Part shown: positions 1-55,177 of the stretch, in pieces
How positions within the stretch are numbered: position 1 is the first letter of the stretch
How the letters are laid out: each line of letters opens with the position of its first letter
Assembly (NCBI GenBank): GCA_002104935.1
Contig: MCGT01000038.1
Span: forward strand, 1-64,000
Direction of reading: 5' to 3'
Source of the DNA: Hesseltinella vesiculosa
Lineage: Eukaryota; Mucoromycota; Mucoromycetes; Mucorales; Cunninghamellaceae
Length of the DNA: 64,000 nucleotides
Notes under the pieces: model-generated
Told to the model about the DNA's origin: nothing
The model's database searches: none
What the model saw: the letters and a program-made list of their open reading frames with translations, nothing else
Made by a program: the position numbers and the translations under genes

Positions 1-291
1 CCTTTTAACCCCTCAACAAACCATGATATTGCTCACCGCGGTACGTAAGTATCGCCAAGGTAAACTCACCTCCTCAAGAGTGGGAGAATATATCTATTCC
101 TCACCTTTTCTTAAAAAAAATGGTCAGGGCTACGAGAATGTACTGCATGTGGATCACCTCACCATGCAACTAGTCGATCACGTCAATGTCCTTTCCATGT
201 GCCCCCAGATCAGCGTAAGTGCATCTTCCTTTTGCACTTCTGGTACCCGTGCTGACTTTTCCGTCCTCTCTCTCTTTCTCTGATAGCAATC

Positions 292-3231
292 TTGGCGACA
301 ACCAGCACAGATAGAGAAACCTTGGCGGAGATAAGAAACCTGCAACAACAGGGCGACCTTCAACGCCAAGCTGCTGCAAGAAACCCACATCCACCTGAAT
401 TTTGCAACACTTGTGGCCTTCCAGGACACTCCAGAGCATCCCACCCTGCCTGTCCCATGCGAGCTATGAGCAAGCTGCAGTACATGTCGAGCCGATTACC
501 TGGAAACGAAGAGTACACCCGCGTTCGCAGTCTTGATAGCATTGTCCGAACACCGTTTCGCCATCACCTCCTGGCAACGATCAATGAAAAATCTGCTTAC
601 GTGCGCAGAACCATGACGCGACTTCAGCTGTTTTTAGTGGACTACGCCACGAACCATCCTAACCAAGTCCCTCCGTTCCTCTTCCAACAAAATGGTCTCT
701 ATGTGATATCTCAGCTAACAAGAGGTCGCATGAATAAATTCCAAGAAGCCTTGGACGAACGGATGCCAGATACCGTCTTGGAACACTGGCAGGCATATGA
801 GCAGTCCTTGCATCAGCTTGCCACGTATGACATGCCCGGCCATACACAAGAATTGACCATAGCCTGCAAGCTGCAGGCATCTTGCAATCGTAACCACGTG
901 ACGGAAAACTTCGAATCTAGAATCAAGCAATATGTGAAGTTTCGATATGCCGTTCATGGCCTGGTACGTAGGAAAAAAAAAGGCCGAGGTGGTTGGAAGG
1001 TTTGGCCAGGGACGATCTTCTAAACTCTACGATTTCATTCCATTTGTAGCTTCCTCCCTCCCAGGTCTTGGCCGCCATAAAAGATCATGTTTATGAGTGC
1101 TTCGCCCCGGAAACACGGATTCAAACTCCCGTCCCCGATACTATCCCCTCCATGTACAGGAACCAAATGGTGGTTATCTTAAATGAACTCTGGGCAATGA
1201 AACCAATTGATCTGCCTACGATTACCCAGGAAACCCTTCGAGCCGAGCCAGGTCAGCATTTGCCAATCCTTATCAGTATCTTACAGGTTTACGATCACCA
1301 TCGAGCCATCAATAGCAATAACAACAGTACCATTGCAATCCCATCATTCACTATTTTGCCGATCCCATCAAGCAAGCCACGTTTTATAGACATTACGCCC
1401 GAGAACATCCATACATTTGTTGGTGGGCATTCTGAAACAAACAACAGGGCAATGACATCATTACCCCCATTCGTGCGCAAGCTGCATCAGTATTGGACCA
1501 TTTTCCAATTTGAAAAACTCGGATACCAAACGTAAGCTTAAAAAAAAAAAAAAAAAGAGAGAGTGCATTCACCTGCGCTTTTTTTCCTTCTATTTTTAGC
1601 TTTGAGGATCTACGAGACGACTGGATCACTGGTAAAATGTTTTCTGGTGTCATGCGTTCTGACGGTGTACAGCTACACATCGTTTTCTCAAGATTACATC
1701 ATGGACCTGATATGCCTGTGATAGCCACTCCTGACCTTGCCAATGAAGATGTCAATGGTTTCACCCTTTCAGGCGTCGACCCTGGCCGTCGTGCTGTGGT
1801 GACGGTCTCTTACGGAAGAGGCAATGACCCCCACGGCATTCGATCTATGAGCTCCAAAGAGTATCGAACGGCAAGCCGAGAAATACACGAGCAGCATCAC
1901 CTTGAACATCGGAAGTCGCTACCACTGCCCCTTGCTCCTGGTCCGCCCCTCCCCTATCACACTATGGCTGAAATCGAGACTAATACGCCTATGGCCGCCA
2001 CTGCTGATCCCCTGACAATCCGCGAATCCATCCATCACAAGCTTCTATGCTCAGAGTCCGCGTTGGCATTCTACGACATCTCACATGCCCGTTCCCGCTT
2101 TGAGCTTCGAAAAGGCCAGCAGAGGGCCATTGCGATGACGGCTAACTACATCACGACTGGATCCAAAAAATACAACCGATCATGCAGAGTGAAGCGGCAC
2201 ACACGACGAAATCGCAAACAAAGGAAGCGCAAGGCACAACGACGGCGCCAAGTTCGACAGTCTCGCCTCAAGGCCGAATACGATGACATTGTGCAATGTA
2301 TTGAGCGACTGAGCGCAGCGCGAGACCAGCAGGCATATCACATGGACCAACTCCTTCGCGTGTCATTGGACGATCCAATGTCCCTTCAACCTCGGTCCCG
2401 CTCTGTCACCCAACGCCAAGCATTTGCGGTGTCACTGAATGAAGCTCTGGATATGTTCGTCAGTGGGCATGACCATGCAACAACGACGCTGACCACTGAG
2501 ATTGAAGAGCTTGAGGAACAAAAACAAGCAATCCAACGCCAATACCTGACCTCAAGTGGCCAAAGGTGAACAAAAAAATAATAGAATGCCTCACAGCAAA
2601 AGGCTCACTCTCCCTTTTTTTATCTTCTATTCTTCTAGCCGCGTACGTACCGTGAAACATCAATTCAGTGGATCTTTGGAACCCGCAAACGGCCTGCCAT
2701 TAATATCCTTTGGTTCAGCGATGGTTGGAAGAGATGGGGTCCATCTGCGTGGCCACACCGTGGGACGAACAGATCTAGTTCGTCGCCACCTTCTCGAGCG
2801 CCAGAAGAGAGCCCTCTGTCTTGTGTCGCACACGGATGAGTTCTGGACATCCCAGGTAACGTGAAAAGAAGAGAAAGGAAAACTGAGCTTGACCCAATGC
2901 CCATGTCTATGTCTAGAACTGTCACCTATGTGGTGAACAACTGTCCCCCGTACGGGGAACCGATGGGCATGTGTTTTCCTTGAAGCACTGCTCAAACTGC
3001 GTGGCCATATGGGATCGCGATGCCTGCGCTGCCTCTAATATGTTCTGGATCCTGGAAGAAACTGTACAGAATGGTGTCCGCCCACTGACTCTCACTCGCC
3101 CGCCTGCCGATCGACCTCCACGTCCGACCCTGCCATCTGAGCCTCTGTGGCGTCCATGTAAGTCAGTGTTCATATCTTTTTTTTTTTTTTTTTTTGGCTC
3201 AGTCGAATTCACCTCTTTTTTTTTATTTTAG
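292..3231 (+). CDS. Fanzor-type (eukaryotic TnpB-like) RNA-guided nuclease, 5' end uncertain
   Basis: At least five exons can be joined in frame: 292-963, 1065-1531, 1600-2565, 2639-2855 and 2917-3157, all GT-AG, giving about 854 residues. In order: a zinc-knuckle-like CX2CX4HX7C near residue 40; a RuvC-I strand SGVDPGRRAVV (Asp codon 1778-1780, about residue 440); a very basic stretch rich in Arg/Lys (2185-2280); a glycine-rich strand PLISFG (from about 2696); DEFWTSQNCHLCG and HCSNC, forming the zinc ribbon; then WDRDACAASNM (Asp codon 3019-3021), which is RuvC-III. This order matches Fanzor and TnpB proteins, which cut DNA guided by a transposon-encoded RNA. No ATG begins exon 1, so an upstream exon (perhaps around 150-230) or a start outside the window is likely. 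The last exon is ambiguous: acceptors at 3211 or 3231 give different short tails. The canonical RuvC-II Glu is not obvious; Fanzors are reported to use a rearranged Glu. Confidence 0.82.
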
Positions 3232-3235
3232 GAAT

Positions 3236-3440
3236 ATCCCTTTTTTTATCCTTGTACTGCCGTAAATAGACGGTTGCACCGTCACCTTTATTTTTCCTTT
3301 TGACGGTTGCTTGAAGTTTAATGTACAGGTAAGGCGAGAAAAAAAAAGTAGCAGTCGCTGACTTTCTTCTGCTCTTTGATATCCCCTTGCTCCGTATCTT
3401 TATTGGTAAGTTGAATTTCCATTCGCCATCGCATGCTAAA
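3236..3440 (+). ncRNA. Candidate guide (omega/fRNA-like) region 3' of the Fanzor ORF
   Basis: Immediately 3' of the Fanzor coding end lies a short hairpin at 3269-3283 (six-base arms GACGGT and ACCGTC around a three-base loop), and the word GACGGTTGC recurs at 3302-3310. Fanzor and TnpB guide RNAs are known to derive from the 3' end or 3' UTR of the nuclease gene and to extend to the transposon edge. Placing one here is inference from position and a weak fold. The transposon right edge is not recognised. Confidence 0.25.
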
Positions 3441-3533
3441 CTTACCCTTCACATTTCCATGTTTAATAGCTCTTTTTGCGACACTTCCATTCCTATCACT
3501 GCGACATTTTTTTGTAAATTATACTTCATTGGC

Positions 3534-3630
3534 GACAAGACCTAGATTGTGTTGTACTTTTCTTTATTCAAATTCCGATATATTAAAAAAAAATAAATGT
3601 CAGAGAGAGTGTCAAAAGTGTAAAGTTATC
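3534..3630 (+). repeat. DIRS left inverted terminal repeat
   Basis: This 97-bp stretch, beginning GACAAGACCTAG and ending AAAGTTATC, is repeated in inverted orientation at 7529-7625. It overlaps the leader of the gag-like ORF. Confidence 0.9.
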
Positions 3631-3675
3631 TTTTTCTTTATCGCCTTTCGGCTCATTTACCATCGATCAAGAGAG

Positions 3676-4485
3676 ATGTCTGATGATCTTATACAACAGC
3701 TCATTAATCGTATTAACTCCTTGGAGACTCGCCTGTCAACTGGACCATCCGAACACGACTTCACTACCATCCAAGAAGATGAGCATGTCACTGTGGTTCA
3801 ACCGGCCACGATTTTACGCCCTTACCCAGCACTACGAGCCGCCCTACCTCAGCTCGAACAGCCTTTCTTCCGTTCCCCACTCCCCGAGTCTGAACGGAAG
3901 CAGATCCTCAGGGGCTGTCCTCAAGTCCTTGACAGGGACTACGCAGCTCCTCCTCTTGGCGATCTGGACCTACCACCAGATGCCTTACGACTGGATAAAC
4001 AACTGCGTGAAATACAATACCGCCTCTCTGGTATCACTCGACCATTGGATGTCTTTGCTCATGATGTGGTTCGTGGCGCTCCTGGTAGCACCACCCCTGA
4101 CACCATTTTACTTCTGGTCCGCACGGTGGAAGCATTGTTGGCGGACACAGCAACCCTGGTATCTCAATACCGCATTGACAACGCGTGCAGGGCCCAAAAG
4201 CTCAAGCCCATTCAACTGGAATCAACATGGGAAGATGCTGCCCCCCAAGATTCTCAACAAACTCCCCTTCTTCCTGCCAAGAAGTTACTGGAACATGCTT
4301 CACTCCAAAAAGCCATTCGTACCCAGCTGGGACCTAAACCCAGAAAGGGAAAAGCGCGATTTAACTCGCCCCAATCAACGGTCGCACGACCAGAACCTCA
4401 ACCTATCCATCCCGACTCAGCCAAGCGGGATTTTCGGCCAACCTTCAGGCACACAAACCCAAAACCGTCGACCCCACGCTCTTAA
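3676..4485 (+). CDS. DIRS gag-like ORF
   Basis: A 269-codon frame starting at an ATG just inside the left repeat (MSDDLIQQLINRINSLETRL) and ending shortly before the RT-encoding frame. The first 30 residues look like a short coiled coil; the C-terminal part is rich in Pro, Gln and basic residues. No zinc knuckle is seen. Position and charge fit a nucleocapsid-like protein; there is no direct domain evidence. The frame is open upstream to 3433, but that part lies outside the element. Confidence 0.65.
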   Translation: MSDDLIQQLINRINSLETRLSTGPSEHDFTTIQEDEHVTVVQPATILRPYPALRAALPQLEQPFFRSPLPESERKQILRGCPQVLDRDYAAPPLGDLDLPPDALRLDKQLREIQYRLSGITRPLDVFAHDVVRGAPGSTTPDTILLLVRTVEALLADTATLVSQYRIDNACRAQKLKPIQLESTWEDAAPQDSQQTPLLPAKKLLEHASLQKAIRTQLGPKPRKGKARFNSPQSTVARPEPQPIHPDSAKRDFRPTFRHTNPKPSTPRS

Positions 4486-4493
4486 AGATACCG

Positions 4494-6503
4494 GTGGGTG
4501 GAAGATTACAACACTTTTCTTCCGCATGGAACGCTCTCACTTCAAACCAGTGGGTGCGCAACGTCGTTACTCAAGGGTACCTCATTCCCTTAATTACCTT
4601 ACCTCCGCTACAGCCAACATCCAAAGTCTCCGTATCCACAAATCCCAAGACGTCCCCGACGACATCGCCAATAACATCTGCCCTCCAGACAGAAATAAAC
4701 ACACTCCTCACGAAGAGCGCCATTACTACCGCTACTCCGTCCCCGGGATTCGTGTCCTCCCTGTTCGTGATCCCGAAGAAATCAGGCGACCTACGGCCAG
4801 TTATCAACCTACGCAATCTCAACAGCTACGTTCAACCTACTCATTTCCGCATGGAAACGCTCAAGGAGGTATGTCGACTGATTCAACCGGGGGATTACAT
4901 GACCAGCCTCGACCTTCAGGACGCCTTCCTCCACGTCCCCATCCATCCGAACTCGCAGCACCTGCTCCGGTTTGCCTGGAAGGACCAGCAATACCAATTT
5001 CGCTCCCTGCCTTTCGGCATGTCACTCTCCCCTTTGGTATTCACCAAAATTCTCCGCCCGGTGCTCCAGTGGGCTCGATCCTTGGGGATAAGAATATCGG
5101 CCTACCTCGACGATCTGATCATCATTGCTCCGACATCACACCTGGCGCACAAACACACCCAAATGGTTCAACACAAGCTACAATCTCTAGGCTTCCTGAT
5201 CAACATGAGGAAGTCATGCCTCTCGCCGGCGCAGATAATAGAACACCTGGGTTTCAGGATCAACAGCCAGCAAATGTCCTTGACGATCCCAGGAGCCAAA
5301 CTCCGGGACATTCGACGCAAGGCATTGTATCTCTTGCGCAAGCCAGCCACCCTCCGCCTCCTGGCTTCCTTTATTGGTATGGCGCAAGCGGCGTCTCCTG
5401 CGATTCGCCCAGCCCGATTGTATCTGCAACATTTATTCCAACTCCGCACGACATTGTGGGAATCACACCATCATTGGTCTGCACCAATCACATTGTCCCA
5501 ACCTGCGAAAGAGGAATTGCGCTGGTGGATCTCTCACCTCTCTTCCTGGAACGGACAATCCTTCATAGCCGAACCACCTACGGTAGAAGCATTCACGGAC
5601 GCATCGGATCTAGGTTGGGGGGCTTGGATAGGTACCCACCACTTGTCATACCCCTGGTCGCCTCAGGAAGCACAACTCCATATCAACATGAAGGAGCTAC
5701 TCGCCGTGAAGTATTTGATCCAACTACCACAAATCCGTGGCCAAGCGGTACACCTACACTGCGACAATACGACGGCAATTGCCTACATCAACCACTGGGG
5801 CGGGACACACTCAACACAACTACGCGATTTAGCCATCACGATTTGGAAACAGTGTTTGGCGGACAACACGCGTCTTCACCTTACATTCATACCTTCCGCA
5901 TTGAACCCAGCCGACAGCCCTTCTCGCCTGGACCTAACGAAGAATTCCGAATGGTCGATCTCTCCGGTGAGCTTTCGCAAACTAGATCACCGATGGGGCC
6001 CCCACGACGTAGACGCCTTTGCTTCCAGCAGGAACCATCACCTACCCCATTACTTGACCTGGCGATACGACCCATCAGCCCAGGGCACAGACGCCATGAC
6101 GATCCCATGGACAGCTTGGCATCGGCCTTATCTGTGTCCCCCATGGAACTTACTTCTTCCAGTCCTCCAACGTCTCCACGACTCTCGCCAACCAGCGACC
6201 ATTGTGGCTCCCCTCTGGACGAGTGCGATTTGGTGGCCCCTCCTTATGAGAATGACGACCCGACGCCGCCCCATCCTTATTCCGTGCCAACATATCGTCA
6301 ACGATCCGGTAAGCGACGTCCCTCCCTTGATGCCTTGGAGGATTCTCGCCTTCGACGTAAACGGCAACACCTCGAGGCACAAGGACTGGACAGCGCTTCT
6401 ATCGACGTCATCATCAGAGGCGAAAGCACCCAAGGAAAAACTAACTACAAGTACTTCCAAGACGCATTTATCAAGTGGTCCTCAACTGTCAACCCGCCGG
6501 TGA
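4494..6503 (+). CDS. DIRS reverse transcriptase / RNase H polyprotein
   Basis: The frame encodes a retroelement RT: LFVIPKKSGDLRPVINLRNLN (fingers, near 4765-4827), SLDLQDAFLHVPIHP, LPFGMSLSPLVF and the catalytic YLDD box near 5103-5114. An RNase H domain follows (EAFTDASDLGWGAWIG near 5587; HCDNTTAIAYIN). Beyond it, a DVDAFAS...PPW region near 6010-6150 resembles the methyltransferase-like segment common in DIRS elements. There is no ATG at the beginning of the open frame, so translation presumably starts by frameshift or at a non-AUG codon; in DIRS elements this ORF usually overlaps its neighbours. The frame is intact to its stop at 6503. Confidence 0.85.
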   Translation: MGGRLQHFSSAWNALTSNQWVRNVVTQGYLIPLITLPPLQPTSKVSVSTNPKTSPTTSPITSALQTEINTLLTKSAITTATPSPGFVSSLFVIPKKSGDLRPVINLRNLNSYVQPTHFRMETLKEVCRLIQPGDYMTSLDLQDAFLHVPIHPNSQHLLRFAWKDQQYQFRSLPFGMSLSPLVFTKILRPVLQWARSLGIRISAYLDDLIIIAPTSHLAHKHTQMVQHKLQSLGFLINMRKSCLSPAQIIEHLGFRINSQQMSLTIPGAKLRDIRRKALYLLRKPATLRLLASFIGMAQAASPAIRPARLYLQHLFQLRTTLWESHHHWSAPITLSQPAKEELRWWISHLSSWNGQSFIAEPPTVEAFTDASDLGWGAWIGTHHLSYPWSPQEAQLHINMKELLAVKYLIQLPQIRGQAVHLHCDNTTAIAYINHWGGTHSTQLRDLAITIWKQCLADNTRLHLTFIPSALNPADSPSRLDLTKNSEWSISPVSFRKLDHRWGPHDVDAFASSRNHHLPHYLTWRYDPSAQGTDAMTIPWTAWHRPYLCPPWNLLLPVLQRLHDSRQPATIVAPLWTSAIWWPLLMRMTTRRRPILIPCQHIVNDPVSDVPPLMPWRILAFDVNGNTSRHKDWTALLSTSSSEAKAPKEKLTTSTSKTHLSSGPQLSTRR

Positions 6504-7371
6504 ACCCTTACTCCCCTTCCCCTGCGGACATCATGTCCTTTATTTCCCGCCAGCGATCAACACGCCCTTGGCAACCACCGACATGCGCCACCGCAAAATT
6601 CGCCATCCTAGCACTTATTCCAGACAAAGCCCACCGCCAGAGGATTATGTCCGACGCAACATTCACGGAGTACTTCCTCGCACTGCGAAAAACGCACATT
6701 CGGGTTGCACCCTACAGCCGTTTCGATATCACCCCTGTCTTGGACAGCATCCGTACGGATCACGACAACCCCCAGCTCTCGTTACGGGTTCTGACCGCGA
6801 AGGTGTGTTTCTTACTCGGCATCACGGGATTCTTACGAGCCGCCGATATCAACTCCATCGACAGGGATGACTCGTACATCCATGGTGTCACCGGCTACCT
6901 TCACCTGTCAATCATCAACCCGAAGGAACGCCGTCAGGGTTTCTCGATCACGAAGGAAATTACGATCGCCCCTTCGCCCAGGACCCTATGCTTTGCCCGG
7001 TGCGTGCTTATAACACCTACTGCGAGCGCACACCAGCTCCATGTCAACAACCTTTCCCGGACTTCGACAACAAACCCAAGCCTTTCTTCACCCCACTGAT
7101 CCGAAACTTGGGCAACCTTGCCTTGACGGTCTCCCCTGACTCCATCCGACGCCACATACGCCACTTCCTTGATTTGATCCCTCGTCCAGCCCACGTCAAA
7201 CGCCCAAAGGCACGGGCACTGGGATCCACCCTTGCCGCCATCAGGGGAGTGGCTATTGACGATATCTTGGTTCAAGGGAACTGGACCTCCCGCAACGTCT
7301 TCCATGACCATTACCGCTTGTCCTCTGCCCACTCCTCCGACATTACCTCGACAGTGCTCCGCCAGGAATAA
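6107..7371 (+). pseudogene. DIRS tyrosine recombinase, frameshifted
   Basis: A frame overlapping the end of the RT ORF carries a lambda-integrase-like core-binding part and the first catalytic Arg box (GITGFLRAADIN near 6820-6850). It then loses homology, and the remainder continues in another frame from about 6985: CPVRAYNTYCERT, later GVAIDDILVQGNW and FHDHYRLS with the presumed catalytic Tyr (near 7300). The break lies around 6975-7000. The second box reads RPKARALGSTLAA; it has an Arg at the expected place, but the usual His three residues earlier appears to be Pro. The ATG at 6107 is only the first in frame. Either this copy is dead or it uses an unannotated shift. Confidence 0.75.
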
Positions 7372-7399
7372 CACTTCATCGATGGTATTTCTTGCAACA

Positions 7400-7497
7400 C
7401 ACAATCTAGGTCTTGTCGCCAATGAAGTATAATTCTCTTTTAATCCGAATAAAATGACGGATTCACAGAATTATACGAGTAGACAAGACCTAGATTG
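7400..7497. repeat. DIRS internal complementary region
   Basis: Positions 7400-7434 are the reverse complement of the element's left tip (3517-3551). Positions 7432-7497 are the reverse complement of its right tip (about 7609-7675). The two parts meet at the AAT shared by both ends. In DIRS elements this region templates completion of the ends and joins them in a circle. Confidence 0.88.
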
Positions 7498-7528
7498 GCC
7501 CTCCCCTCCCTTTCCCTTCTTTATATTT

Positions 7529-7625
7529 GATAACTTTACACTTTTGACACTCTCTCTGACATTTATTTTTTTTTAATATATCGGAATTTGAATAAAGAAA
7601 AGTACAACACAATCTAGGTCTTGTC
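7529..7625 (-). repeat. DIRS right inverted terminal repeat
   Basis: Reverse complement of 3534-3630. It is followed by a unique extension (7626-7675) whose complement is found in the internal complementary region, as in DIRS-1. Confidence 0.9.
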
Positions 7626-7774
7626 TACTCGTATAATTCTGTGAATCCGTCATTTTATTCGGATTAAAAGAGAATAAAGTGTATATGACATGCGGACCTA
7701 CGCGGATGATTTATTTTCGGGAAAAAGTGGGTAAACAAAGATGAGCTGCAGGATGAAAAAAAAAATGTGGATGC

Positions 7775-9557
<1,783 letters not shown>

Positions 9558-33828: not shown

Positions 33829-35428
33829 ATGTCAGGGCAAAGTAGGTTTCAAAAAAAAAAAAAAAAAAAAAAAAAAAGCGGACCATTGATTTTCCATCGA
33901 AAAACTCACCCCATTTTTTTCAAGGTGTGATTCCTCTTTCGGTGGTCACTGACTCATTAAAGGCTTACAAGGCTGGTGAAAAGGATGCCAAGAAATTCAT
34001 TGTGGTAGATAACAAAGTGTACGAAATCACTGATTTTATTGCTGATCACCCTGGTGGCGTCAAGGTCATTTCCACACAAATCGGCAAAGATGCTTCTGGT
34101 AAGAGAAGAAAAGGGAGGGGAGAGGGAAGAGAGAAGCAGGAAAACTCATATGCTTGACTAGATGTGTTCCATGCCATGCATCCCGAATCTGCCTATGAAA
34201 TGCTGGCCAATTGTTATGTGGGTGATCTGGGTCCTGAAGACGCAGCGGTGCCAGAGCTGGACGAAAAGGCCGAGAACTCCAAACGGTTTGGTGCCGAAGT
34301 ACGGGCGCTGCGTCAACAATTGGAAGAACAAGGCGCATTCCAAGGGAGCCATTTGTTCTATGCTTACAAGGTCCTGTCGACGTTGGCCATTGGAGCCACA
34401 GGGCTGGCCATGCTGTACTTTGGCGGTCAGTCGACCTGGGTGGTGTTGGCAGCGGCGTTGGTGACGGGTGTGTTTTGGCAGCAATGCGGCTGGTTGGCCC
34501 ACGACTTTGGCCATCACCAAGCTTACAACGATCACTCGGCCAACGATGTGATGGTGGCCTTTTTGGGTGGGTTCTGTCAAGGCTTCTCGTTGTCGTGGTG
34601 GAAGAACAAGCACAACACACATCATGCCAGCACCAACGTGCATGGCCACGACCCCGACATCGACACCGCTCCTGTGCTCCTTTGGGACGAAATGGCCACC
34701 GCCACCTTTTACGGTTCCCTGGAGGATCAAAAGGACTCGACCTTTTCCCGCTTCATCGCCGAACACATCTTGCCCTACCAAACCCGCTACTATTTCTTTG
34801 TCATCGGCTTTGCCCGTCTGTCCTGGGCCATCCAGTCGCTCCAATATTCCTTCAGCGTCGGCGCCCTCAACAAGTCGCCTTCGCTCAACTTGCTCGAACG
34901 TTCCATGCTGGTGTGCCATTGGGTCTTGTACACCTCCTGGACCTTGCTGTTCATCAGTTCTTGGACCAATATGCTCATGTTCTTTGTCGTCAGTCAAGCC
35001 ACCACCGGCTATGCCTTGGCCTTGGTCTTTGCCATGAACCACAGCGGCATGCCTGTGCTCACCCAGGAACAAGCTGAAAAGATGGAATTCTTTGAAATCC
35101 AATGCGTCACTGCCCGTGATGTCAGCATGGGTCCTTTGGGCGATTGGTTCTTTGGCGGTCTCAACTATCAAATCGAACACCACGTAAGTTGTTTTTTTTT
35201 TTTTTTTTATTGCGGAAGAGCCTTGGCTGACGGATGGTCCTTTCTTAGGTATTCCCCGACATGCCTCGTCATAATCTCCCCAAAGTCAAGCCCCAAATCA
35301 AAGCCTTGTGCAAGAAATACGACATCCTTTACCATGATACCTCTTGTTTGCGTGGCACTTTGGAAGTGCTTCAAGCCTTGGATGTGGTGCAAAAATTGGC
35401 TGGCAAACTGTCCCAAAAAATGTTTTAA
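33829..35428 (+). CDS. Front-end fatty-acid desaturase with cytochrome b5 domain (Delta6-type)
   Basis: Exon 1 is only 13 nt (MSGQ plus one base), followed by an intron with a 27-bp A-run. The N-terminal cytochrome b5 domain has the haem motif DHPGG (about residue 44). The desaturase has the three His boxes HDFGHH, HNTHH and QIEHH, where Gln in the last box marks front-end desaturases. WWKNKHNTHHASTNV and GHDPDIDTAPVLLWDE closely match fungal Delta6 desaturases, which convert linoleate to gamma-linolenate in the ER; this fits Mucorales, which make that acid. A Delta8 sphingolipid desaturase is the main alternative. The last intron follows QIEHH directly. Confidence 0.88.
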
Positions 35429-35972
35429 AACCTGCTCTTTTCCTCTCTCTTTTTTAGTGTACAAACAAAAAAAAATAGTCATCTAATAAAATAAAATAAA
35501 GCCAATTAGCTTTTTCAATTGAACATTTAGACATGTGCAACAGGGTCCAGGGAATAAATAAATAAAAACGTGGCAGAGAACGAGATCCTCGTTTTTTTTT
35601 TCAAAAATTGGGACAATGAAGATGTCTGCGTCACCTCACTTGACCAAATGATTTAGCCAAACCCATTTGGGGAGTTCTTGACATTGTTTTGGCTGTGAGG
35701 GAGTCGGGTCCCTCTCCCCCTTTTTTTTTTATTGCAAACGGCGTTCCAATCACTTGACGAACCCCCAATGCTCATTTCCTTTTCTTTGACCTGGGCCCAA
35801 TTCGTCATTCCGATGCCTCCCCATCCTTTTGATCAAAAAGACCCGAGCTTTGTTCCCCCAATCATACATTAGCCGCATTGGCAAAAAAAAAAAAGATTTT
35901 TTTCAATTTCCTTTGTCATTGCTCTTTCCTCTTCTTTTTTTGTTGACCTTGCGTATCTTTTTTAAAAAAAAA
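35429..35972. other. Intergenic region
   Basis: Desaturase 3' end with AATAAA-like words (35486-35500). Otherwise T-rich; nothing recognised. Confidence 0.5.
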
Positions 35973-53356: not shown

Positions 53357-53579
53357 ACACTCTCCTTCCAATCAAGCAAAAGTAAAAGGCATGAGCAGGT
53401 GACATGGATTTGTTTCCTCGAGGTTTGGACCGCATTTTGGGAGGTGTGATTGGTCCATTTTAAAATCTTTTACGGGTCGAAAGCGTTTTAATCTTCGCAC
53501 TCGCCCACTTTTTTTTTTTTTTTTTTACTCTTCACTAGACTTTTTGAACGGCAGTAATACACTTATTTTAGAGGTCGTC

Positions 53580-55177
53580 ATGGCTGCATTTCCAAGTGAA
53601 TTATTGCTTTATATATTTACATTCTGCCATGGCGACACCTTGCTCACCAGTCGGCAGGTATGCTCTCAGTGGTTGCGGCTCATTGATCATTACGACGCTC
53701 TCGTTTGGTCGTCCAGTTGTCACCATGATTTCCAACGGGGTCTTCGTCGACGGTTTTGGTCACTTGAATTTCCACACCCCCACACCGTCAATCGTCTGCT
53801 GTTCCGACAGGACACCTCGGTTTCGAAACCAATCACCTGGCAGGATCTTTATCGCCTGGCCAGAGCCTGGTCCCACGGGTCTTGCCGCTCCTTCTACGTC
53901 GATACAGCCGATACCCAGCCTGGTTTCAGCCTCGCCCCCAGCCTTGTTGTCGGCAGTCTGCAAGAGCAGCATTTCTTCACCTCGCTCTCGGTTACCCACA
54001 GTGGCTACGTTGTACGATCCAACCCCACCTATAAATCCGCCTCCAACCTGCAAGCCTTGGTTCTCCAGCAACTCAGCCCTCACCTGCCCTGTCGCCACGT
54101 TGAAGACACGGCGTTGCATGGCATTGTGTGCCACTACTCCGACCCGTCGTCCTCTTATATTGTCACTGGTGGCGTCGATGGCACGGTCTCCCTTTGGCAT
54201 GAACGACACGGCTGCAAAGCCACCTGGCAAGCCCACCGCAGTCGAGTGCTGTGCGTCAATATGAATGATCAAGGTACAGTTTTTCTTTTTTTAATTTTTT
54301 CGCAAAGGACTTATTTCTTCTTGATGTAGTCGTTGTCAGTGGCGGCTCAGATGGAATGATTCGGGTGTGGGACGTGGCAGATAATGCGCAGCAAAGAGGC
54401 TCCATCGACATCTCGTCGTATCTGACCGGGGACTGGTTCCAGCATGGTGTGGGCGAGCTAGCAGTCAACGGCCACTTGGTGGTGTGTGCGCCCGATGCGT
54501 CCGGCCCAGTGCTAATCTTCTCCATCCTGACAGGCTCATTGGTGTATGAGCTTAAGACCGAACCACTGGAAGCCACCGCCTTCTCGCGCCTGTGCCTGAC
54601 CCCCTTTTACCTGCTGACCAAAGGCGAGCTCCGGCAGCATAATCGAGACCAAGTCCCTGTATACCCCCGCGCAGCGCTTCAATCGCATGAGCACGTCCTC
54701 GCTGCGCGCCAAGCCCCAGCCCAGCCTGCCTCCTTTGGCTCCCTGGTCAGCATGCCTGACACAGACGACCTGCTGTCCTCCAGCGGCATGTCTCCGTATC
54801 AGCTCGCTCGCCATTTTGCCTCGGTATCGCCCACCTCACCCACCTCGCCCTCCTGCAGCCTGCGCCAGACCAGTTCCCTCTCCGTACCTTGCATTAACGT
54901 GTGGGACCTGCAGACCGGCCAGCTCGCTTACCGAATGGTCCCGCCCTGCCTTGCCGAAGACATCCCGCCGTCGTCCATGTCCATCACTGACATCCAGGTC
55001 AGCCCCCACACTGCCCACGTCTTTGCCTGTGTAGAGGTCCGCTTCAAAAGCCACCGGTACCACCGTCTTTGCTGCTGGGATTTCTCCCGCAATCAATCCT
55101 TGCCTTCTCTTTTCCCTGTGCCGCCGCTCTCGAATACCATGGCCACGGGTGCTGCCTGGGCCTGTGTGTATCCTTAA
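53580..55177 (+). CDS. F-box / WD40-repeat protein
   Basis: Two exons, with one intron near 54275-54328. The N-terminus is an F-box (AAFPSELLLYIFTFCHGDTLLTSRQVCSQWLRLIDHYD, residues 2-45), which binds Skp1. WD40 blades follow: YIVTGGVDGTVSLWHERHGC, VVVSGGSDGMIRVWDVAD, and later SVPCINVWDLQTGQLAY, with degenerate ones between. It probably recruits substrates to an SCF ubiquitin ligase; the target is unknown. I chose the ATG at 53580 because CTTATTTTAG right before it resembles an acceptor and the F-box starts there; an upstream ATG at 53544 adds 12 residues. Confidence 0.85.

Follow-up and report, generated by a model that had tools for sequence, protein, structure and literature searches.

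The window considered here, a stretch of 64,000 nucleotides, is contig C32 from its first base in the 27.05-Mb, 85-contig genome of Hesseltinella vesiculosa (Mucorales), a soil fungus. It opens with a Fanzor1-type gene, whose features and those of its predicted protein are as follows.

2..3233, + strand: Fanzor1-type gene, 5' end lost at the contig start, modelled on GT..AG sites and in-frame joins
2-59, 128-214, 287-963, 1050-1531, 1600-2565, 2639-2855 and 2917-3157, + strand: predicted exons of this gene
139..189, + strand: knuckle-like motif 1, CX2CX4HX7C, visible residues 24-40, same spacing in P0002 and P0004
403..453, + strand: knuckle-like motif 2, CX2CX4HX7C, visible residues 88-104, same spacing in P0001, P0002 and P0004
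1778..1780, + strand: RuvC-I Asp495 of DPG (DPGRRAVV)
2159..2278, + strand: GSKKY and an Arg/Lys-rich block, 20 of 40 residues R or K, between RuvC-I and the zinc ribbon
2838..2840, + strand: Glu824, candidate rearranged RuvC-II glutamate, E-x6-CxxC (E-FWTSQN-CHLC)
2920..3000, + strand: C4 zinc ribbon CxxC-x19-CxxC (TNB domain), with CHLC at 2920-2931 and CSNC at 2989-3000
3019..3021, + strand: RuvC-III Asp864 of WDRD (WDRDACAASN)

The exon model was predicted from GT..AG sites and from agreement with the relatives P0001 and P0002. It comprises eight predicted exons, and the stop codon is split by an intron (3158-3231) and completed at 3232-3233. On one spliced open frame 909 amino acids are visible; because the window begins where the contig begins, 45 codons, the start codon among them, fall outside it. 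Contig C33 carries an intact copy (99.7% identity across 3522 aligned positions) that starts at an ATG and keeps its frame open over a full protein of 954 amino acids, larger than the approximately 800 residues given for large Fanzor1s in the available text of PMC10711439. The earlier note had started the gene at position 292, which is not borne out, as the exons 2-59 and 128-214 precede that position and the C33 copy starts at an upstream ATG. A first exon at 1-40 was ruled out because P0002 shows the frame of 2-59 to be coding, and comparison with P0001 put the start of exon 4 at 1050 in place of 1065.

The predicted protein carries RuvC-I in its DPG form, the C4 ribbon and RuvC-III in the TnpB/Fanzor order that had been read from the joined exons, and all three are confirmed on the one spliced frame. 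The fuller order D..[TS][TS]xx-C4 finger..RD is present (DPG at 1778, TSQN-C from 2847, the C4 finger at 2920-3000 and RD to 3021), and the same order is given for Fanzors by Bao and Jurka, in the part of PMC3627910 available. The RuvC-II glutamate had been called unclear; a candidate can now be placed at Glu824, six residues ahead of the first CxxC, as in the published Fanzor arrangement. The accessible portion of PMC10711439 names this alternative glutamate and the near-exclusive DPG form as marks of Fanzors. The spacing from D to [TS][TS] is 331 residues, outside the published D-X(125,275)-[TS][TS], and is read as extending the range of Fanzor1 rather than excluding the protein from it, since the published range reflects insert lengths in a sample from 2013. 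Within the ribbon the CxxC-CxxC spacing of 19 is one above the published 12-18 search rule, which was written for TnpB searches.

At the N-terminus, the CCHC-like knuckle proposed earlier is present at 403-453; it is not single, as a second motif lies at 139-189. Both are kept in P0004, which is 44% identical to P0001, and from these motifs we infer that the N-terminal knuckles may bind metal (zinc). Pfam returned nothing above its cut-off for the knuckle region of P0002, the nearest models being zf-Mss51 (E 0.06) and zf-CCHC_6 (E 0.93). The Arg/Lys-rich block had also been placed in front of the nuclease motifs, which is not so: it lies between RuvC-I and the ribbon, and it falls within the stretch of the RuvC exon that is matched at many Fanzor-like loci of the genome.

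Family identity, relatives and selection

With the joined exons as query (an earlier version of 898 amino acids), phmmer matched P0001 at E=0, with 59% identity over 94% of the query. P0001 passes the Pfam TNB profile (PF07282; 31.9 bits against a cut-off of 26.3), while the ribbon exon of the window alone scores 13.4 bits, below the cut-off. A three-sequence C-terminal profile was aligned by hhalign to other local Fanzor-like proteins with 99% probability (E 4.9e-18). The profile of these other proteins matches structures of TranC and TnpB (E 7e-6 to 1e-4) and weakly that of the Guillardia theta Fanzor1, GtFz1 (E 0.018), and the RuvC exon of one of them weakly matches the structure of SpuFz1 (E 0.021). 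Among structures, the C-terminal profile of the window found only LaTranC below E 0.01; the joined window protein had no match among PDB sequences at E<=1, and the window RuvC exon none among structures at E<=10. An AlphaFold2 model of P0001 from a seq­uence alignment of seven members has a mean pLDDT of 43.9, too low to judge the D-E-D cluster; inside this otherwise low-confidence model the stretch after RuvC-I is built as long helices (pLDDT ~46-85). Judged by its DPG, rearranged glutamate, C4 ribbon and RD, together with the TNB score of P0001 and the hhalign match, the window gene is a Fanzor1-type gene, a known kind, and the earlier identification stands.

Searches with approximately 8000 candidates each gave no relative outside Hesseltinella among the matches listed, which is weak evidence, as the last of these searches also missed the 44% relatives P0004 and P0005. 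Viral contigs searched with the C-terminal alignment yielded 111 stretches matched by pattern and no confirmed relative, and the literature searched held no work joining Fanzor with Hesseltinella or Fanzor with a zinc knuckle.

Within the genome, relatives are abundant, which answers the earlier call to look for other copies. The RuvC exon matches at least 68 places at E<=0.001 and the TNB family 46, and at least 13 of the weaker RuvC-exon matches lie 0.6-1 kb from TNB-family matches and in line with them. The 17 matches with E below 1e-60 form three groups by identity: three at 99-100%, ten at 50-56%, two of these ten interrupted by a stop, and four at 40-42%. Comparing the window gene with the C23 relative of subfamily 2 over 846 aligned codons gives pN 0.26, dN 0.33 and pS 0.79 (saturated); dS was computable for four of the eight 100-codon blocks, and dN/dS in these is 0.08, 0.14, 0.22 and 0.38. 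The gene evolves under purifying selection.

Leaving the window aside, 13 of the 16 strong Fanzor loci have a divergently transcribed companion open reading frame (ORF) of ~100 amino acids, placed ~1.8-2 kb upstream of their RuvC exon. Two examples, with 29 genome places besides, are:

L039:7055-7465, + strand: companion ORF
L043:2464-2862, - strand: companion ORF

It was not found at C59, where the contig edge may be the reason, at C15 or at the C64 insertion, and some of its matches, such as those on C3, C26 and C13, come without a strong Fanzor match. Three distant pairs give pN/pS of 0.31/0.67, 0.40/0.74 and 0.42/0.84, and the companion ORF is under purifying selection. Its resemblance to HAT/TPR repeats is weak, the matches to Suf (E 0.007 and 0.043) staying under the cut-off. 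A remnant N-terminal part of a second Fanzor-like gene, of the MGKRRAQQ type, lies before subfamily-2 copies at L043:740-2107, L047 and L045:1771-2260, an arrangement that suggests composite elements.

The split right end and the apparent insertion site

Downstream of the gene, the window holds the following features.

3395..3519, + strand: left piece of the right-end cassette, with a putative last 3'UTR intron from GTAAGT at 3406 to AG at 3469
3520..~7675, + strand: DIRS-like retroelement, with a reverse transcriptase (RT) frame at 4365-6500 and inverted repeats at 3534-3630/7529-7625
7673..7683, + strand: remainder of the right end, AATAAAGTG/TA (the slash marks the element end), terminus of the Fanzor element; same terminus with another flank in C64
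7684..7703, + strand: flank, expected start of a guide provided that the Fanzor rule applies, by inference from the part of PMC10432273 available
8684-9373, - strand: TIP49/RuvB-like ATPase gene
34158-35483, + strand: fatty acid desaturase gene
53403-54326, + strand: F-box/WD40 gene

Sequence comparison with the other copies indicates that the right end of the window copy is split by the DIRS-like element, which sits after an AAT in the right end and is followed by a second AAT at 7673-7675. The left piece, 3395-3519, is 97.6% and 99.1% identical in the C35 and C12 copies and 92% in two C23 copies, whose genes share only ~60% protein identity, and the right end is uninterrupted in C33. The sequence AATAAAGTGTA at 7673-7683 is the only exact match in the 64 kb on either strand, with 0.01 expected. 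On C64 a stretch equal to 3462-7683 is 99.8% identical, with the DIRS-like element at the corresponding base of a right end and different DNA past the terminus. The guide-RNA tail proposed earlier at 3157-3440 was therefore mis-bounded and is broken, as it holds only the start of a cassette that runs over 3395-3519 and resumes at 7673-7683. A cassette end at 3519 was dropped, this base being the edge of the DIRS-like element and the true end lying at 7683. Judged from its sequence, the DIRS-like element may encode a tyrosine recombinase; Pfam gave no match. The ends of another copy of this element, with a different left flank, were seen on C21; it was rejected as a further case of insertion into a right end, as its left flank, although ending in AAT, is not a right end.

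Copies of the Fanzor element end sharply at AATAAAGTG/TA (..AAGTG/TA), with different DNA beyond. A 28-base right-end pattern with three mismatches allowed has 30 genome matches and a left-end pattern 12, against none for either pattern read backwards; these counts include the copies from which the patterns were written, whose match is a given. On C64 a subfamily-3 Fanzor element begins TTTAATA/CAGT at a point where the window copy continues uninterrupted as TTTAATAGC, the empty site; this filled-versus-empty comparison covers the left junction only, the right one being lost. The left ends of J, F and H likewise read TA/CAGT. Seen from this one junction, the element appears to insert at TA with a CAGT left terminus, features that we take to be reminiscent of Tc1/mariner elements. 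The left end of the window subfamily's own element was not found. Carriage on a mobile element is supported by the dispersed copies, the sharp right end with changing flanks and the junction at TA; that the locus might be self-mobilising, as had been suggested, is not borne out, no transposase having been recognised by eye among the frames read.

Right-end exchange and the role of the cassette

The right ends and the genes in front of them have different histories. When the 126 nucleotides before the terminus were compared across 15 copies, a right-end cassette of ~130 nt was found to be common to Fanzor lineages with gene bodies that are either unrelated or diverged to saturation. The gene body of F (C35) is 97.5% identical to that of D (C23), while its right end is 98% identical to that of subfamily 1 on C33 against 83% to D and 88% to E, the close kin of D; G (C12) repeats the pattern, with 95% against 88%, and 92% to E. 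Families J and K show DNA similarity by blastn only in the right end, at 99% over 135 bp; the K copies K and L054 carry the J-type end at 98-99%, and the ends of L060 and L063 are 83% and 76% like it. On C64 the right end of the nested subfamily-3 element runs straight into the DIRS-like element, the arrangement expected if sequence between two right ends had been deleted, and this may be a third case of exchange. Divergent right ends also occur, with L061 at 36-48% and L057 at 43-58% identity to the others. As gene and cassette histories disagree in both the F/G and the J/K case, right ends appear to recombine or to be converted between Fanzor lineages.

Fanzors, which correspond in eukaryotes to TnpB, are under development as editors. 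The locus very probably holds a Fanzor1-type RNA-guided DNA nuclease gene on a mobile element, apparently TA-inserting, with no transposase seen on it. By analogy with other Fanzors, the protein would be loaded with an RNA that covers an element's right end and ~15 nt of flanking DNA; it would then cut the matching site that lacks the element, and this cutting would help the element to persist or spread. RNA guidance and DNA cleavage by the window Fanzor are drawn from this analogy. What the sequences themselves show is that the protein belongs to the family and has three candidate catalytic acids, that the gene is under purifying selection, that the family is dispersed, and that a right end is common to several lineages and apparently recombined between them. 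Because the DIRS-like element splits its right end, the window copy probably makes protein only, and other copies could supply RNA to that protein.

Two other accounts of the gene have to be weighed against this reading. The low direct similarity to solved structures would suit a different RuvC/zinc-ribbon nuclease, such as a TnpB gene of prokaryotic type or a transposase of other descent with convergent motifs; we regard this as highly improbable given the strong profile match to other local Fanzor-like proteins, the eight predicted exons and the combination of DPG with the rearranged glutamate, which are Fanzor marks in the available text of PMC10711439, though one bacterial TnpB group shares both. 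Bacterial TnpB has the same core of RuvC and OrfB zinc ribbon, but typically carries a hydrophobic residue for the P of DPG and its canonical glutamate ~50 residues upstream of the ribbon (same portion of PMC10711439). The elements might also be relics, carrying a recently dead or passenger Fanzor that does nothing now, and both the split right end of the window copy and the C64 copy of the gene, with its stop codon and frameshift, speak for this; it is nonetheless unlikely, as no stop interrupts the 909 amino acids of the window copy or the 954 of the C33 copy, purifying selection acts across a deep divergence and the C33 right end is intact.

In the unsplit C33 copy the putative last intron (equivalent to 3406-3469) is followed by a terminal stretch of 58 nt, and AATAAA stands five bases before the element end in 13 of 15 copies, being absent from D and L061; an mRNA ending at this signal would carry some flank. 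For SpuFz1, the part of PMC10432273 available describes a guide RNA with a 75-nt scaffold over the right-end repeat and 14-15 nt of flank. Folding lends an RNA scaffold no support: three right ends folded singly were equalled or bettered by 133, 184 and 17 of 200 shuffles (z 0.42, 1.17 and -1.46), and RNAalifold gave a consensus fold of -0.59 kcal/mol, near zero, with one of 11 pairs kept by double change. A 6-bp GGTAAG/CTTACC hairpin is kept in five of the seven RNAalifold rows and shifted by one base in the other two; it is not claimed as a guide stem, as it overlaps a sequence like a 5' splice site.

The cassette could be a transposase-binding inverted repeat with 3'UTR and terminator, common to many copies through one unseen transposase and holding no guide scaffold. 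This is quite conceivable, if somewhat short of probable: the cassette stops exactly at the element end with TA, TGTCGCA-type boxes occur also at the left ends of J, F and H, none of the three folded right ends has significant structure, and at one locus (L062) no Fanzor frame was recognised in the 800 nt ahead of an end of this kind. Against it, the common piece of ~130 nt is longer than a two-box end, and the scaffold of a published Fanzor lies exactly there, spanning the right-end repeat (PMC10432273, in the part available). A bolder proposal takes the ~130-nt right end as an exchangeable guide-RNA module: divergent Fanzors would swap ends, one nuclease would use the RNAs of many elements and broken copies would act in trans, while splicing of the 3'UTR intron and polyadenylation at AATAAA would place the 3' end of the guide in the flank, and the divergent HAT-like companion might help. 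We consider this speculative and, taken whole, doubtful.

Known systems give the reading of a Fanzor1-type nuclease on a mobile element its closest parallels. SpuFz1 on Spu-1 of Spizellomyces punctatus, also a Fanzor1, has a RuvC core and a C4 ribbon as here and sits in an element with terminal repeats, on which no transposase was found, and its target motif CATA ends in TA, next to which the element here lies; it differs in being a single-ORF locus of 2.1 kb, as against eight predicted exons, 954 amino acids and two knuckles here (PMC10432273, in the part available). A further difference is that the right end here is common to several Fanzor lineages and its guide RNA is a candidate only. PpFz1 of Parasitella parasitica, compared by description, is likewise a Mucorales Fanzor1 with an insertion in RuvC; its insertion binds cyclophilin, whereas the stretch after RuvC-I here is Arg/Lys-rich (available text of PMC11423790). 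MCi-2 and the MuDR-type Fanzor elements of Mucor, Rhizopus and Phycomyces are also Mucorales Fanzor1 elements with copies that have one common end and differ at the opposite one, but MCi-2 has a common 6-kb 3' part that includes one Fanzor and has duplications of 11-12 bp (accessible portion of PMC3627910), while here only the ~130-nt right end is common, across different Fanzor genes and next to TA. The end-swapping among Fanzor lineages that the sequences point to, the large two-knuckle protein and the conserved divergent companion ORF are unusual. With several Fanzor lineages and near-identical right ends in one genome, guide sharing and the formation of guide ends are directly testable in a single fungus.

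Other termini occur in the same genome. Another Fanzor-like family, with L061 and L064 as members, terminates in GGATAAAGTGTA, an end present at 10 genome places, two of which were read. The right-end-like terminus TGCGACAATCATTCATGAATAAAGTGTA of L062 (G000:C9:484100-485000) is found at four genome places and possibly marks another or a gene-less element. A minisatellite with units of ~29 bp (L039, minus strand; G000:C33:102012-102360) immediately follows the right end of the C33 Fanzor.
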